From: Gemmatimonadaceae bacterium
GTDB lineage: Bacteria; Gemmatimonadota; Gemmatimonadetes; Gemmatimonadales; Gemmatimonadaceae
Length of the DNA: 64,000 nucleotides
NCBI GenBank assembly: GCA_019752115.1
Contig: JAIEMN010000002.1
Coordinates: 124,001-188,000, forward strand
Reading direction: 5' to 3'
The notes under the pieces: model-generated
What the model was told of the DNA's origin: nothing
Database searches by the model: none
The model's input: the letters and a program-made list of their open reading frames with translations, nothing else
Shown: piece by piece, positions 3,137-39,164 of the stretch
Numbering within the stretch: the stretch's first letter is position 1
How the letters are laid out: every line of letters starts with the position of its first letter
Made by a program: the position numbers and the translations under genes

Positions 3137-3751
3137 CTATTCGACCGCGCGGCTCGCCTGCGCCGCCCCTTCCCGCACGTGCATCGCAATGAACCGCTTC
3201 AGATCGGCCGCGATCCCCTCCAGCACGGAGAGATCGCGCTTCACGCGCGTCATCAGGACCGCGCCCTCGAGCGCCGCAATGATGAAGCGGGACAGCCGCA
3301 CCGCATCGACATCGTCCTGCAACTGCGGACGGGCTTCCCAGAGCAGCGAGCGGATCTGGCTCGCCCAACGCTCGAACACCGCCTCGATACGCACGCGGAA
3401 CCCTTCGTGCGCGTCAGCGAGCTCCGCCGCCAGGTTCCCGAACGGCGACCCACGGCGGCCGCCGCTTTCCGACTGCAACGCCACCACGGCGTCGATGAAC
3501 AGGTACAGGCGCTCGAGCGGATCGATCATCGGCTCGCGCAGGATCGCCAGACCGCGCTCGGCGAAGCGCTCGAACTGCCGATTGAGCACTTCGTAACCCA
3601 GCTCTTCCTTGGACTTGAAGTAGTGGTAGAAATGACTCTTACCACTGAGCTTCGCGCCCTTGATCACATCGTCGACGGACGTGGACGTAAATCCGCGTTC
3701 GGAGATGAGCGTGGCGGCAGCGTCGAGGATTTGCGTGCGGCGGTCTGACAT
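3137..3751 (-). CDS. TetR-family transcriptional regulator
   Basis: Ligand-responsive repressor of 204 aa. The N-terminal helix-turn-helix spans roughly residues 5-50 (ILDAAATLISERGFTSTSV, then KLSGKSHFYHYFKSKEEL). The remaining helical part is the ligand and dimer domain, with the FIDAVVALQSESGG segment seen in TetR proteins with this type of C-terminal domain. The frame extends upstream but MSDRRTQILDAA at 3751 is the natural start. A promoter and a GGACC-N4-GGTCC palindrome lie directly upstream, so autoregulation is likely. It is followed by the ECF sigma gene and is divergent from the FIST and GGDEF-EAL genes. The ligand is unknown. Confidence 0.92.
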   Translation of the reverse strand: MSDRRTQILDAAATLISERGFTSTSVDDVIKGAKLSGKSHFYHYFKSKEELGYEVLNRQFERFAERGLAILREPMIDPLERLYLFIDAVVALQSESGGRRGSPFGNLAAELADAHEGFRVRIEAVFERWASQIRSLLWEARPQLQDDVDAVRLSRFIIAALEGAVLMTRVKRDLSVLEGIAADLKRFIAMHVREGAAQASRAVE

Positions 3752-3763
3752 TATGCCTGATGA

Positions 3764-3781
3764 TAGGACCGTGTGGTCCAA
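3764..3781. promoter_or_regulatory. Putative TetR operator A (imperfect palindrome)
   Basis: TAGGACC, four bases, then GGTCCAA. The arms and the 4-bp spacing match the perfect palindrome at 3890. It lies 13-30 bp upstream of the tetR ATG, downstream of the tetR promoter, which is a typical place for an autorepressor site. Binding is inferred. Confidence 0.6.
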
Positions 3782-3807
3782 AGCGCAAGAGGGGGGATGT
3801 GGAAATA

Positions 3808-3834
3808 CTAAGACTATACAAATCAACAACTTAG
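3808..3834. promoter_or_regulatory. Dyad shared with the hemH upstream region
   Basis: An imperfect inverted repeat beginning CTAAG and ending CTTAG. Bases 3809-3834 align without gaps to 37038-37063 at 20 of 26 positions, in the same orientation relative to the downstream minus-strand gene. The common right half reads ATCAAC, one variable base, ACTTAG. It overlaps the -10 and spacer of the tetR promoter, so a protein bound here would affect initiation. The binding factor is unknown. Confidence 0.55.
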
Positions 3835-3889: not shown

Positions 3890-3907
3890 TAGGACCGATC
3901 GGTCCTA
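3890..3907. promoter_or_regulatory. Putative TetR operator B (perfect 18-bp palindrome)
   Basis: TAGGACCGATCGGTCCTA is a perfect inverted repeat. Its core GGACCGATCGGTCC recurs exactly at 37078-37091 upstream of hemH, and its GGACC-N4-GGTCC form recurs at 3765-3779. It lies between the divergent tetR and FIST genes, as expected for a TetR-family operator. Binding by the adjacent TetR is inferred. Confidence 0.7.
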
Positions 3908-4069
3908 TCAAACAGGCACACCAACTGTAAATCTGCGACTGACAACATTTTGGGCCACGATGCGCGTCCGGCGCACGATGAATACACGTTCAGATGCGGG
4001 ACGAGCTGCCGATACTTGCTACGGCAGTCGATGACGGCCCTAGGCCTCCCCCCTCTCTCGTGCGCGCTC

Positions 4070-35674: not shown

Positions 35675-36910
35675 TCAGAGACCGGCCACCGACTCTTCCA
35701 GCGCCTCGTGATGCGCCGCGGACACACAGGCCGACGGCGTTGCCACCGTCGCCGCCATCGGGGAGGCCGCCGCGAGTCGTGACGGCACACCGCGGCAGGC
35801 CGCGTTGGTGCAGCCAGGGCACTTGCGACGGTAGTTCGGACCGAACGGCTTCCCCTCGGCGAGGTGCTCGAAGACGATATCGGCGAGCGCGTCGAGGAAC
35901 TCGGTGCGGCCGTTGAGGGCCGGCGCCCGCTTGTAGCCCGTCATGCCGAGATTGTGGGCCAACTCCCCGTATTCGAGGTCGAGCTCCGACAGCGTTTCGA
36001 TGTGATCGCTCGTGAAGGCGATCGGCACCACGAGCAGATTCTTCTCGCCGCGATGCCCGAGTTGCTCGATGACCGTTTCCGTGCTCGGCCCCAACCAACG
36101 GAGCGGGCCGACTTCCGACTGGTAGCTCACCATGTACGGATTGCGGAGGCCGATTGCCTCCACCACGCGGCTCACGGTGGCGCCGATCTCGGCGGGGTAC
36201 GCATCCCCGCGATCGATCACCTTGAGCGGCAGCGAGTGCGCACTGAACAGCACCAGCACGTCATCGCGTTCGGCCTCGGGATACTGCTCGAGGCCATCCT
36301 CCACCGCGCTGGCCATGGCGCGCACAAAGCCCGGGTGCTCGCCCCACCGGTCGATGATGCTCCACTCGAACGCGTCCTTGGTTCCCGTCCGCTCGGCGGC
36401 GCGCCACAGATCGTTCAGGCTCGAGCCGGTCGTGGAGCACGACCACTGCGGATACTGCGTGAAGGCCACCGCGCGCGTGATGCCGTCGGCCTTCATCTGC
36501 TGCAGCGCATCATCCGCGAACGGGTGCGTGTAGCGGAACGCCACGTAGAACTTGTGCGGGGCCGTCTCCGGCGACATTTCGTCGAGCCGCTTGCACATCG
36601 CTTCGCCCTGCAGCGAGGTCCACTTGAGAATCGGCGATCCGCCACCGATGCGCTCATACAGCTTGCGCACCTTGGGCGCGCGGCGCGTGGCGATGAACTT
36701 CCCCAGCACATCCTGCCAGGGGAGTTGGATGATCTCCCGGTCGGCGAAGAGGCGGAGCAGGAATGGCTCCACATCGTCGAGCGTGGCCGGTCCACCCAGG
36801 TTCATCATCACGATGCCGGTGCCACCCCGGGTCGAACCGGTCGTGGCGGGGGCCGCGGGGTGCGTCGTCGCAACAGGGCGGCGGAACGGGAGCACATCAG
36901 TGGGCGTCAT
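35675..36910 (-). CDS. hemH: Ferrochelatase with [2Fe-2S] cysteine set
   Basis: A 411-aa enzyme that inserts Fe2+ into protoporphyrin IX, the last step of haem synthesis. Family motifs are VMMNLGGPATLDDVEPFL, LFSAHSLPLKV and the VSYQSEVGPLRWLGP segment. It carries all four cysteine positions that bind a [2Fe-2S] cluster in human-type ferrochelatase: Cys in QWSCSTTGSS and C-x2-C-x4-C in RKCPGCTNAACRG. A 35-residue Ala-rich extension follows. The ATG at 36910 is chosen, but 36928 or 36991 could also start the protein. The upstream region holds a palindrome and a dyad also found at tetR. hemA follows. Confidence 0.92.
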   Translation of the reverse strand: MTPTDVLPFRRPVATTHPAAPATTGSTRGGTGIVMMNLGGPATLDDVEPFLLRLFADREIIQLPWQDVLGKFIATRRAPKVRKLYERIGGGSPILKWTSLQGEAMCKRLDEMSPETAPHKFYVAFRYTHPFADDALQQMKADGITRAVAFTQYPQWSCSTTGSSLNDLWRAAERTGTKDAFEWSIIDRWGEHPGFVRAMASAVEDGLEQYPEAERDDVLVLFSAHSLPLKVIDRGDAYPAEIGATVSRVVEAIGLRNPYMVSYQSEVGPLRWLGPSTETVIEQLGHRGEKNLLVVPIAFTSDHIETLSELDLEYGELAHNLGMTGYKRAPALNGRTEFLDALADIVFEHLAEGKPFGPNYRRKCPGCTNAACRGVPSRLAAASPMAATVATPSACVSAAHHEALEESVAGL

Positions 36911-37037
36911 GGACACATAGATCGGCATTGGAACCGGCGCAAACAATTCCGGTTCTCTACCAGTTCGCGTCCGTAATGCTCCGTAGGGCAAACTGTGCCT
37001 GGCGCACGATTCTCCCCGACATTCCGGTAGGGTTTTA

Positions 37038-37063
37038 TAAGTCGTTATATATCAACGACTTAG
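37038..37063. promoter_or_regulatory. Dyad upstream of hemH, shared with the tetR region
   Basis: Arms TAAGTCGTT (37038-37046) and AACGACTTA (37054-37062) are a perfect inverted repeat with a 7-bp spacer. Bases 37038-37063 align without gaps to 3809-3834 at 20 of 26 positions. It lies 128 bp or more upstream of the chosen hemH start and contains AT-rich hexamers where a promoter could form. Confidence 0.6.
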
Positions 37064-37073
37064 ATTAGATCGA

Positions 37074-39164
37074 TCATGGACCGATCGGTCCCATCCGGAA
37101 GAGGCTCCAGGGCCAGCTGAGCGCCCCGGGCTCGGTGCCGAGCAGAAACCACTCTGTATAGCGGTTTTCGGCGAGGGTTTTGGCGTCGGCGGGCTTGCCG
37201 GTGGTGCGGTCCATTTCCGCGGAGACGAGGCCCGGTGGCGGGGTCCATGCACCACTGGGTTTGCTCCCGTATGCGGCGGCGATGATCCGTCCAGCGATGG
37301 GGGCCGCCAGCGTGCCACCGGCAGCGCCGGGCGCGATCATCGCCGGCTTGTCGAAACCGAGCCAGACCCCGAGCACGAGCTCCGGGGTCATGCCCACGAA
37401 CCAGACATCGGTATTGTCGTTCGTTGTCCCGGTCTTGCCCGCAACGCGGACCTGCGGTGGAACGATCTTCCGGAGGGCCGTCGCGGTGCCGCGATTCACG
37501 ACGTCGGTCATGATGTCGCGCATGATGAACGCCACCCGCGGGTCCATGGCGGGGCGCGCCGGCGAGCCCGGCGGCGAGAACACGGCCTTGCCGGTGCGGT
37601 CATCGATGCGGGCAATGAAGCGCGGATCGACCCCGACTCCTCCGTTGTCGAAGCTGGCATAGGCCGCCACGAAGTCGAGCGGCTGCACGACGCTCGCACC
37701 GAGCGCACTCGACGGGTAGGGGGCGATCGGTGCGCGCAGGCCGGCGCGGCGCGCCAGCGCCGTCACCGAGTCCATGCCGACACTGAGTGCGAGTTGTACT
37801 GCCACCGGGTTGCGCGAGCGCGTCAGCGCCTCGCGCAGCGTGAGCATGCCGAGGAAGGTGTTGTCGGCGTTGTCGGGGCTGTAGATCTGCCCGTTGTCGA
37901 GCCGGAGATGCAGTGCCGTGTCGGCGACGAGGGCAGTGGGCGTGAGCCCCTGCGCGATGGCCTGCGCATAGACAAACGCCTTGAAGCTTGAGCCGGGCTG
38001 GCGGTTGCCGTCGACCGCACGGTTGAAGCTCGAGCGCGCGTAATCACGCCCCCCCACGAGCGCGCGGACTTCGCCGGTCGTTGGGTCGAGCACGACGGCC
38101 GCCCCCTCGAGGCAGGCGTCCACGCGCGGCTTCTTGCCGGCGGGCGGCGAGGAGTCGGCGCGCGCGGCACACCGCTGCCCACGGAAGCCGGGGCGCGATT
38201 CGATCTCGTCGATGCCGCTCGAGAGCGCCTGCTGCGCGGCGCGCTGCAGGCCGGCGTCGATGGTGGTATGAATGCGATAGCCACCCTGCGTGACGGGGAC
38301 GCCGGCGCGTTCGGCCTGCACGCGCACGACATCGGTGACCCAGGGCGCGACGGCGGCGCTCGGGGTGATCGTGCGAACCGGTTCCCGTTGCGCCGCGCTC
38401 GCCTGCGCGGCGGTGATGTACCCTTGGGCGGCCATCAGCGCGAGGACGGTGTTGCGTCGCTCGCGATTGCGATCGGGGTACTTGGCCGGATCGTACAGCA
38501 CCGGGCTCTTGGGCATCGAGGCCAGACTGGCCGCTTCGGCCAGTGTGAGCTCGGCGGCGCCTTTCCCGAAGTACTGGCGCGCCGCCATCTCGATGCCGTA
38601 GGCGCCGCGCCCGAAGGAGATCTGGTTCAGGAACGCCTCAAGGATCTGTTCCTTGTTGTAGTGACGTTCCATCTCGCGCGCCGCCTGCTGCTCGCGCAGC
38701 TTGCGCCCCGGCGACTTGTCCCGCCGGTCGATCACATCGGGGTGCATGTTGCCCACGAGGAGCTGCGTAATGGTGCTGGCCCCGCGCATTTCGCCCTTGG
38801 TCACGGCGTCCTTGAGCGCACCGGCGACGCCGACGAGGTCCACCCCATCGTGCTGGTAGAAGCGTTTGTCCTCGACCGCGATGAACGCCTGCCCGACGTA
38901 CTTGGGGAGGCTGCGGACCGAGATACTGATGCGCCGCTCGCGACCGAACTGACCGATGACGGCGCCATCTCGGGCGAGCACCACCGAGGCCTGCGGCGGG
39001 GTGATGATGCGCCACGGTTCACCGGTACCGGCACCGGGGGCGCTCGCCGCGGGCGCGCCCCCCTGCGCGGGGAGCACGCCGGGCAGGACGGGAACGGCCG
39101 ACATGGCCACCATCGCGGCGATGGTGGCGCGACGGGTGCACCAGGTCATGCGGAGAAAAGCCAT
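37074..39164 (-). CDS. Class A penicillin-binding protein (transglycosylase-transpeptidase)
   Basis: A 696-aa peptidoglycan synthase that polymerises glycan chains and cross-links peptides outside the cytoplasmic membrane. The glycosyltransferase domain has AVEDKRFYQHDGVD with the catalytic Glu, GASTITQLL and NQISFGRGAYGIE. The transpeptidase domain has SxxK in PGSSFKAF, SRN and KTGTTND. The N-terminus has only a short hydrophobic stretch (AAMVAMSAVPVLPGVL) ending in AQGG, so it could be a cleaved signal rather than a standard membrane anchor. Its last codons overlap the palindrome at 37078. It could be PBP1a-like, or a PbpC-type relative. Confidence 0.9.
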   Translation of the reverse strand: MAFLRMTWCTRRATIAAMVAMSAVPVLPGVLPAQGGAPAASAPGAGTGEPWRIITPPQASVVLARDGAVIGQFGRERRISISVRSLPKYVGQAFIAVEDKRFYQHDGVDLVGVAGALKDAVTKGEMRGASTITQLLVGNMHPDVIDRRDKSPGRKLREQQAAREMERHYNKEQILEAFLNQISFGRGAYGIEMAARQYFGKGAAELTLAEAASLASMPKSPVLYDPAKYPDRNRERRNTVLALMAAQGYITAAQASAAQREPVRTITPSAAVAPWVTDVVRVQAERAGVPVTQGGYRIHTTIDAGLQRAAQQALSSGIDEIESRPGFRGQRCAARADSSPPAGKKPRVDACLEGAAVVLDPTTGEVRALVGGRDYARSSFNRAVDGNRQPGSSFKAFVYAQAIAQGLTPTALVADTALHLRLDNGQIYSPDNADNTFLGMLTLREALTRSRNPVAVQLALSVGMDSVTALARRAGLRAPIAPYPSSALGASVVQPLDFVAAYASFDNGGVGVDPRFIARIDDRTGKAVFSPPGSPARPAMDPRVAFIMRDIMTDVVNRGTATALRKIVPPQVRVAGKTGTTNDNTDVWFVGMTPELVLGVWLGFDKPAMIAPGAAGGTLAAPIAGRIIAAAYGSKPSGAWTPPPGLVSAEMDRTTGKPADAKTLAENRYTEWFLLGTEPGALSWPWSLFRMGPIGP
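37078..37091. promoter_or_regulatory. Putative TetR operator upstream of hemH
   Basis: GGACCGATCGGTCC, a perfect 14-bp palindrome identical to the core of the tetR operator at 3890. It overlaps the last codons of the PBP gene (stop at 37074-37076) and lies about 15 bp upstream of the hemH dyad. Regulation of hemH by TetR is inferred. Confidence 0.65.

Follow-up and report, generated by a model that had tools for sequence, protein, structure and literature searches.

A palindrome of two inverted IHF half-sites recurs upstream of many genes in Gemmatimonadales and is a putative target of a homodimeric HU/IHF protein

Single HU-type proteins are usually held to bind DNA non-specifically, and IHF sites are normal parts of att sites. 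The IHF protein of Escherichia coli recognises the consensus WATCARNNNNTTR and introduces two intercalated (proline) kinks 9 bp apart (PMC8421141), and it is classically tied to RpoN promoters, where it acts between the enhancer and the promoter (PMC7962754). In the 1IHF structure, Arg46 of the beta subunit inserts into the minor groove. A limited literature search found no papers on HU/IHF sites in Gemmatimonadota. Here we describe a dyad found in a stretch of 64,000 nucleotides from a Gemmatimonadaceae bacterium (hereafter the window; GC 67.5%) and across the order, whose conserved letters form two inverted IHF half-sites (CARNNNNTTR). Judged from sequence, the dyad is probably an architectural site for the homodimeric HU/IHF (DNABII) protein that is the lineage's single one. 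Coordinates of the features are collected in Table 1.

Table 1. Features of the window and the associated DNABII protein
Feature	Position	Strand	Sequence or remark
26-mer before tetR	3809-3834		TAAGACTATACAAATCAACAACTTAG
26-mer before hemH	37038-37063		TAAGTCGTTATATATCAACGACTTAG
IHF-type dyad before tetR	3809..3833		TAAGACTATACAAATCAACAACTTA; gene strand TAAGTTGTTGATTTGTATAGTCTTA
IHF-type dyad before hemH	37038..37062		TAAGTCGTTATATATCAACGACTTA; perfect 9-bp arms
Weaker dyad match (10/12 core letters)	3928..3952	.	upstream of divergent FIST-domain gene
tetR (TetR/AcrR-type regulator)	3137..3751	-	start codon 3751-3749
tetR promoter -35, TTGCGC	3783..3788	-	20 nt downstream of dyad; aligned in 28 orthologs
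tetR promoter -10, TATCAT	3760..3765	-	from sequence and ortholog alignment
TetR operator	3766..3779	.	GGACCGTGTGGTCC; in -35/-10 spacer
Second TetR operator	3892..3905	.	GGACCGATCGGTCC; tetR-FIST intergenic region
hemH (ferrochelatase)	35675..36910	-	start ATG at 36910-36908; dyad 127 nt upstream of it
DNABII protein of a Gemmatimonadota species			MTKADLVENVTARIARTAGP...

An earlier note on this DNA had reported a gapless match between the regions upstream of tetR and hemH, and direct reading reproduces it: the two 26-mers agree at 20 of 26 positions in the same orientation. Both copies had been called inverted repeats, which is exact for hemH, where the arms TAAGTCGTT and AACGACTTA are perfect, 9 bp each, around a 7-nt spacer; the tetR copy is a dyad too, but an imperfect one (outer TAAG/CTTA). 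On the plus strand the E. coli IHF consensus is matched exactly within each site, as AATCAACAACTTA at tetR and as TATCAACGACTTA at hemH, and a sigma-54 promoter was recognised at neither. Among the window's 155 AT-rich 26-mers the two sites make up the only non-overlapping direct pair with at least 20 of 26 identities, and none of 40 windows with shuffled AT-rich islands produced a pair of such similarity. A pattern derived from the two sites had no match in 100 shuffles of the window, a result to be read with the understanding that the pattern was built from the sites themselves.

The tetR site had been thought to cover the -10 element and the promoter spacer. The alignment relocates it: the dyad sits upstream of the promoter, TTGCGC-N17-TATCAT, an arrangement that is conserved in orthologs. 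Of 28 tetR orthologs, about half have a dyad (counted when at least 9 of 12 core letters match) in the corresponding place, with 19-21 nt separating it from the -35 element, so the absence from relatives that the earlier note had named as a refutation was not seen at this gene. The promoter spacer itself holds GGACC-N4-GGTCC, which has the form of a TetR operator, and a short palindrome GGAC[C/T]-N4-[A/G]GTCC overlapping the promoter, between -35 and -10, is conserved in orthologs; autorepression of tetR through this operator is likely. The dyad thus lies upstream of the promoter, and TetR's own operator is a separate element. An element similar to the second TetR operator is present at about -151 in four genus relatives. 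The TetR protein is 99% identical in several members of the genus, compared to about 85% for hemH.

At hemH, the comparison with relatives went against a conserved site. Upstream sequence could be read in 10 genus relatives, and none of them keeps the dyad; their best core score is 6-9 of 12 letters, i.e., background level, versus 11 here. No promoter was recognised at a favoured gap from the hemH dyad. Relatives within the genus share another dyad ahead of hemH, CCGTAA-N3/4-TACGG (36960-37000; L045-L055), which may be the real operator of this gene. A further connection between tetR and hemH through GGACCGATCGGTCC was considered and rejected: the copy at hemH (37078-37091) encodes the end (GPIGP) of the neighbouring penicillin-binding protein (PBP), and this coding accounts for its resemblance to the relatives' sequence. 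It is therefore no sign of a TetR operator at hemH.

The two sites belong to a lineage-wide family, TAAGTYGTTG-N5-CAAYRACTTA. When 250 genomes of the order were searched for matches to TAAGTYGTTGNNNTNYANNNNCTTA with at most one mismatch, about 140 distinct sites were found, compared to 4 matches to the control, which was the reversed, uncomplemented pattern in the same genomes. In the window's own genome, the pattern derived from tetR and hemH also picks out a site ahead of an ECF sigma gene, and a less biased pattern adds one ahead of gyrB, bringing the number to four; the bare core TAANNNNTTGNNNNNCAANNNNTTA with one mismatch occurs at 14 places versus 2 for the control, and the gyrA promoter of this genome is without the site. 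The genes downstream of sites, identified by inspecting the N-terminal part of each protein, include gyrA, gyrB, topA, groES, parA, parB, HU, Ku and an ECF sigma factor as well as protein kinases, pilins and flagellar genes. The flanks around sites are not conserved across the order, so the motif stands alone, and the positions of the sites are conserved while their letters drift. In family f3 the motif seems to be rare or missing. At parA (L008, L010, L131) the gap from the dyad to the start codon is just 2-5 nt; L008 has a parS-like sequence, TTTCACGTGAAAC, close by, and L010 a comparable one. The earlier note had held that many unrelated hits in a genome search would speak against a regulator site; the matches are indeed many, yet they are placed non-randomly at promoters, which favours a global DNA-bending protein over noise.

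Placement relative to promoters was assessed in a collection of 143 sites, which was selected by pattern and includes orthologous groups, so that its cases are not all independent. Recognised sigma-70 promoters peak at a gap of 16 nt (12 forward and 3 reverse of the 143 sites), and 16 nt is also the distance from the dyad to the -35 element at gyrA and gyrB; most of the 143 sites are without a recognised promoter at the favoured distance. For gyrA, the promoter was located first (TTGNNN-N17-TANNTT) and the 25 bases 16 nt upstream of the -35 element were then read. The gyrA upstream regions came mostly from a protein search, 9 of them being fetched by motif, and the motif was not used in the reading. 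The resulting base frequencies are T.78 A.89 A.86 ... T.78 T.81 G.70 N5 C.65 A.78 A.51/G.38 ... T.89 T.89 A.81, which corresponds to the consensus YAANNNNTTG-N5-CARNNNNTTR. The motif is not itself a sigma-70 -10/-35, ECF, sigma-28 or other core promoter element, as it lacks a conserved partner at promoter spacing and the real promoters lie downstream.

Promoters of the sigma-54 type (TGGCAY-N6-TGC) were also located: all 20 found within 60 nt lie at gaps of 15-18 or 25-30 nt downstream of the dyad, none was found at gaps of 61-250 nt from the 143 collected sites, and one lies upstream. The two gap classes are about one helical turn apart and occur on both motif orientations, as expected from the symmetry of the site. 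Starting from the promoters instead, a small test found a good dyad at 12-16 nt for roughly 3 of 11 sigma-54 sites, and when 39 genomes were scanned for the strict consensus the yield was 11 sites, which did not exceed the control, again a small sample. At five loci (L273, L275, L276, L280 and L127, the last a Gemmatimonadetes contig that holds the same gene with the dyad), the dyad before an ECF sigma gene is followed after 15 nt by a sigma-54-like promoter, which suggests that an ECF sigma factor is under sigma-54 control in several genomes.

The candidate binding protein is the one PF00216 protein encoded by the window's own genome (97% complete). At least one DNABII protein is present in 49 of 49 good-quality genomes of the family sample, and most have exactly one. 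All 31 DNABII proteins that were read carry IEVRGFG, the E44/R46 signature of IHF-beta; the segment matches IEIRGFG of IHF-beta and IEFRSFG of Borrelia Hbb. The motif is also found just upstream of the DNABII gene itself in L238 and L244. Within the dyad, the inner steps Y8/T9 and A17/R18 are 9 bp apart, equal to the IHF kink spacing, and presumably correspond to the kinked steps of the IHF structure.

We infer that sites of the form YAANNNNTTG-N5-CARNNNNTTR would be bound sequence-specifically by a DNABII homodimer, since a homodimer making beta-type contacts through each of its halves would be expected to prefer exactly this palindrome. With an IHF half-site in each arm and inner steps 9 bp apart, the DNA would be kinked symmetrically at the two TTG/CAR steps. 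The bend, 20 nt upstream of the -35 element at tetR and 16 nt at gyrA and gyrB, would probably assist RNA polymerase, whether by contacts upstream or via a bound activator, and tetR would then be switched by TetR on GGACC-N4-GGTCC between -35 and -10. At sigma-54 promoters the bend would lie between enhancer and promoter, in an IHF-like manner. The hemH copy would likewise be a strong site of this type, found here and missing from the relatives.

Other readings of the dyad have to be weighed against this one. AT-rich upstream stretches do resemble each other more often, but given that no such pair arose in the 40 shuffles and that the sites exceed the control across the order, a chance likeness between the two AT-rich promoter regions is extremely improbable. 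The claim of a shared regulator site rather than a coincidence consequently stands as far as the dyad itself is concerned, and fails in its restriction to tetR and hemH. A regulator dedicated to these two genes would account for the 20 of 26 identities between their sites; however, across the order the motif stands ahead of numerous unrelated genes, a distribution that largely refutes it, and the dyad is missing at hemH of the genus relatives, which leaves such a regulator a very slim likelihood.

We give equally little weight to the proposal that the dyads are mobile-element or recombination sites (integrase att sites, transposon ends) scattered in the genome, despite some suggestive cases. 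In Thauera relatives (L063, L082, L094, L116), P4-type integrases are preceded at 153 nt by perfect dyads, which are likely att-linked IHF-type sites; one relative has a dyad behind a tRNA gene; and the Verrucomicrobiae genome OX638380 has several near-identical dyads (L067, L098, L109, L111, L119, L120) 87 nt before a 401-aa IS-like ORF, which is probably an insertion element. Within this order, the repeated flanks of att or transposon sites are absent, the spacing to housekeeping promoters is fixed, and positions are kept while letters drift. The operators of FNR/CRP, LexA and CIRCE-like systems were dismissed, as their half-site spacing does not match. A dimeric activator acting in a class-I-like manner on housekeeping and sigma-54 genes of the order deserves more attention, because a palindrome at a fixed spacing from sigma-70 promoters is typical of class I activators, but we regard it as unlikely: the conserved positions fall on the IHF half-sites and reproduce the kink spacing, the two-phase placement just upstream of sigma-54 promoters is the arrangement of IHF and too close for usual enhancer sites, and the target genes have no single common theme.

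Binding by the DNABII homodimer is thus the reading we prefer, and it admits a bolder version that we advance only tentatively: one homodimeric HU/IHF protein of this phylum may serve as a palindrome-specific global transcription factor, seated at a constant distance ahead of the gyrase promoters and, in certain genomes, ahead of its own gene, thereby tying nucleoid architecture to the control of supercoiling. If the assignment is true, a full palindrome of two IHF half-sites, serving promoters of the sigma-70 as well as the sigma-54 class in a phylum whose regulation is almost undocumented, would show by what means a homodimeric DNABII protein recognises DNA specifically. The site collection is a ready list of testable promoters.

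Among known systems, the class I activator sites (CRP at -61.5) resemble the dyad in position, which is centred near -64 at gyrA and gyrB, whereas its sequence and its occurrence at sigma-54 promoters favour a bending protein. Borrelia Hbb (PDB 2np2) is likewise a single homodimeric DNABII protein with E/R at the IHF-beta E44/R46 position and similar sequence around IEFRSFG and ARNPQTG, although it comes from another phylum. The E. coli IHF site shares with the dyad the half-site CARNNNNTTR, the 9-bp separation of inner steps, the location just upstream of sigma-54 promoters and, at both window sites, the exact plus-strand consensus. It differs in that a second inverted half-site YAANNNNTTG, conserved in the promoter-first alignment, here replaces the A-tract, that WAT is not conserved at gyrA, where CARNNNNTTR alone of the E. 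coli consensus holds, and that a single DNABII gene leaves no alpha/beta heterodimer. Borrelia Hbb is not known to have a palindromic promoter-site family of this kind. The IHF-assisted sigma-54 promoters (nifH, Pu) have their bend site between the enhancer region and the -24/-12 promoter, as is proposed here, but in this lineage the same type of site also stands at a fixed distance from the sigma-70 promoters of gyrA, gyrB and tetR.
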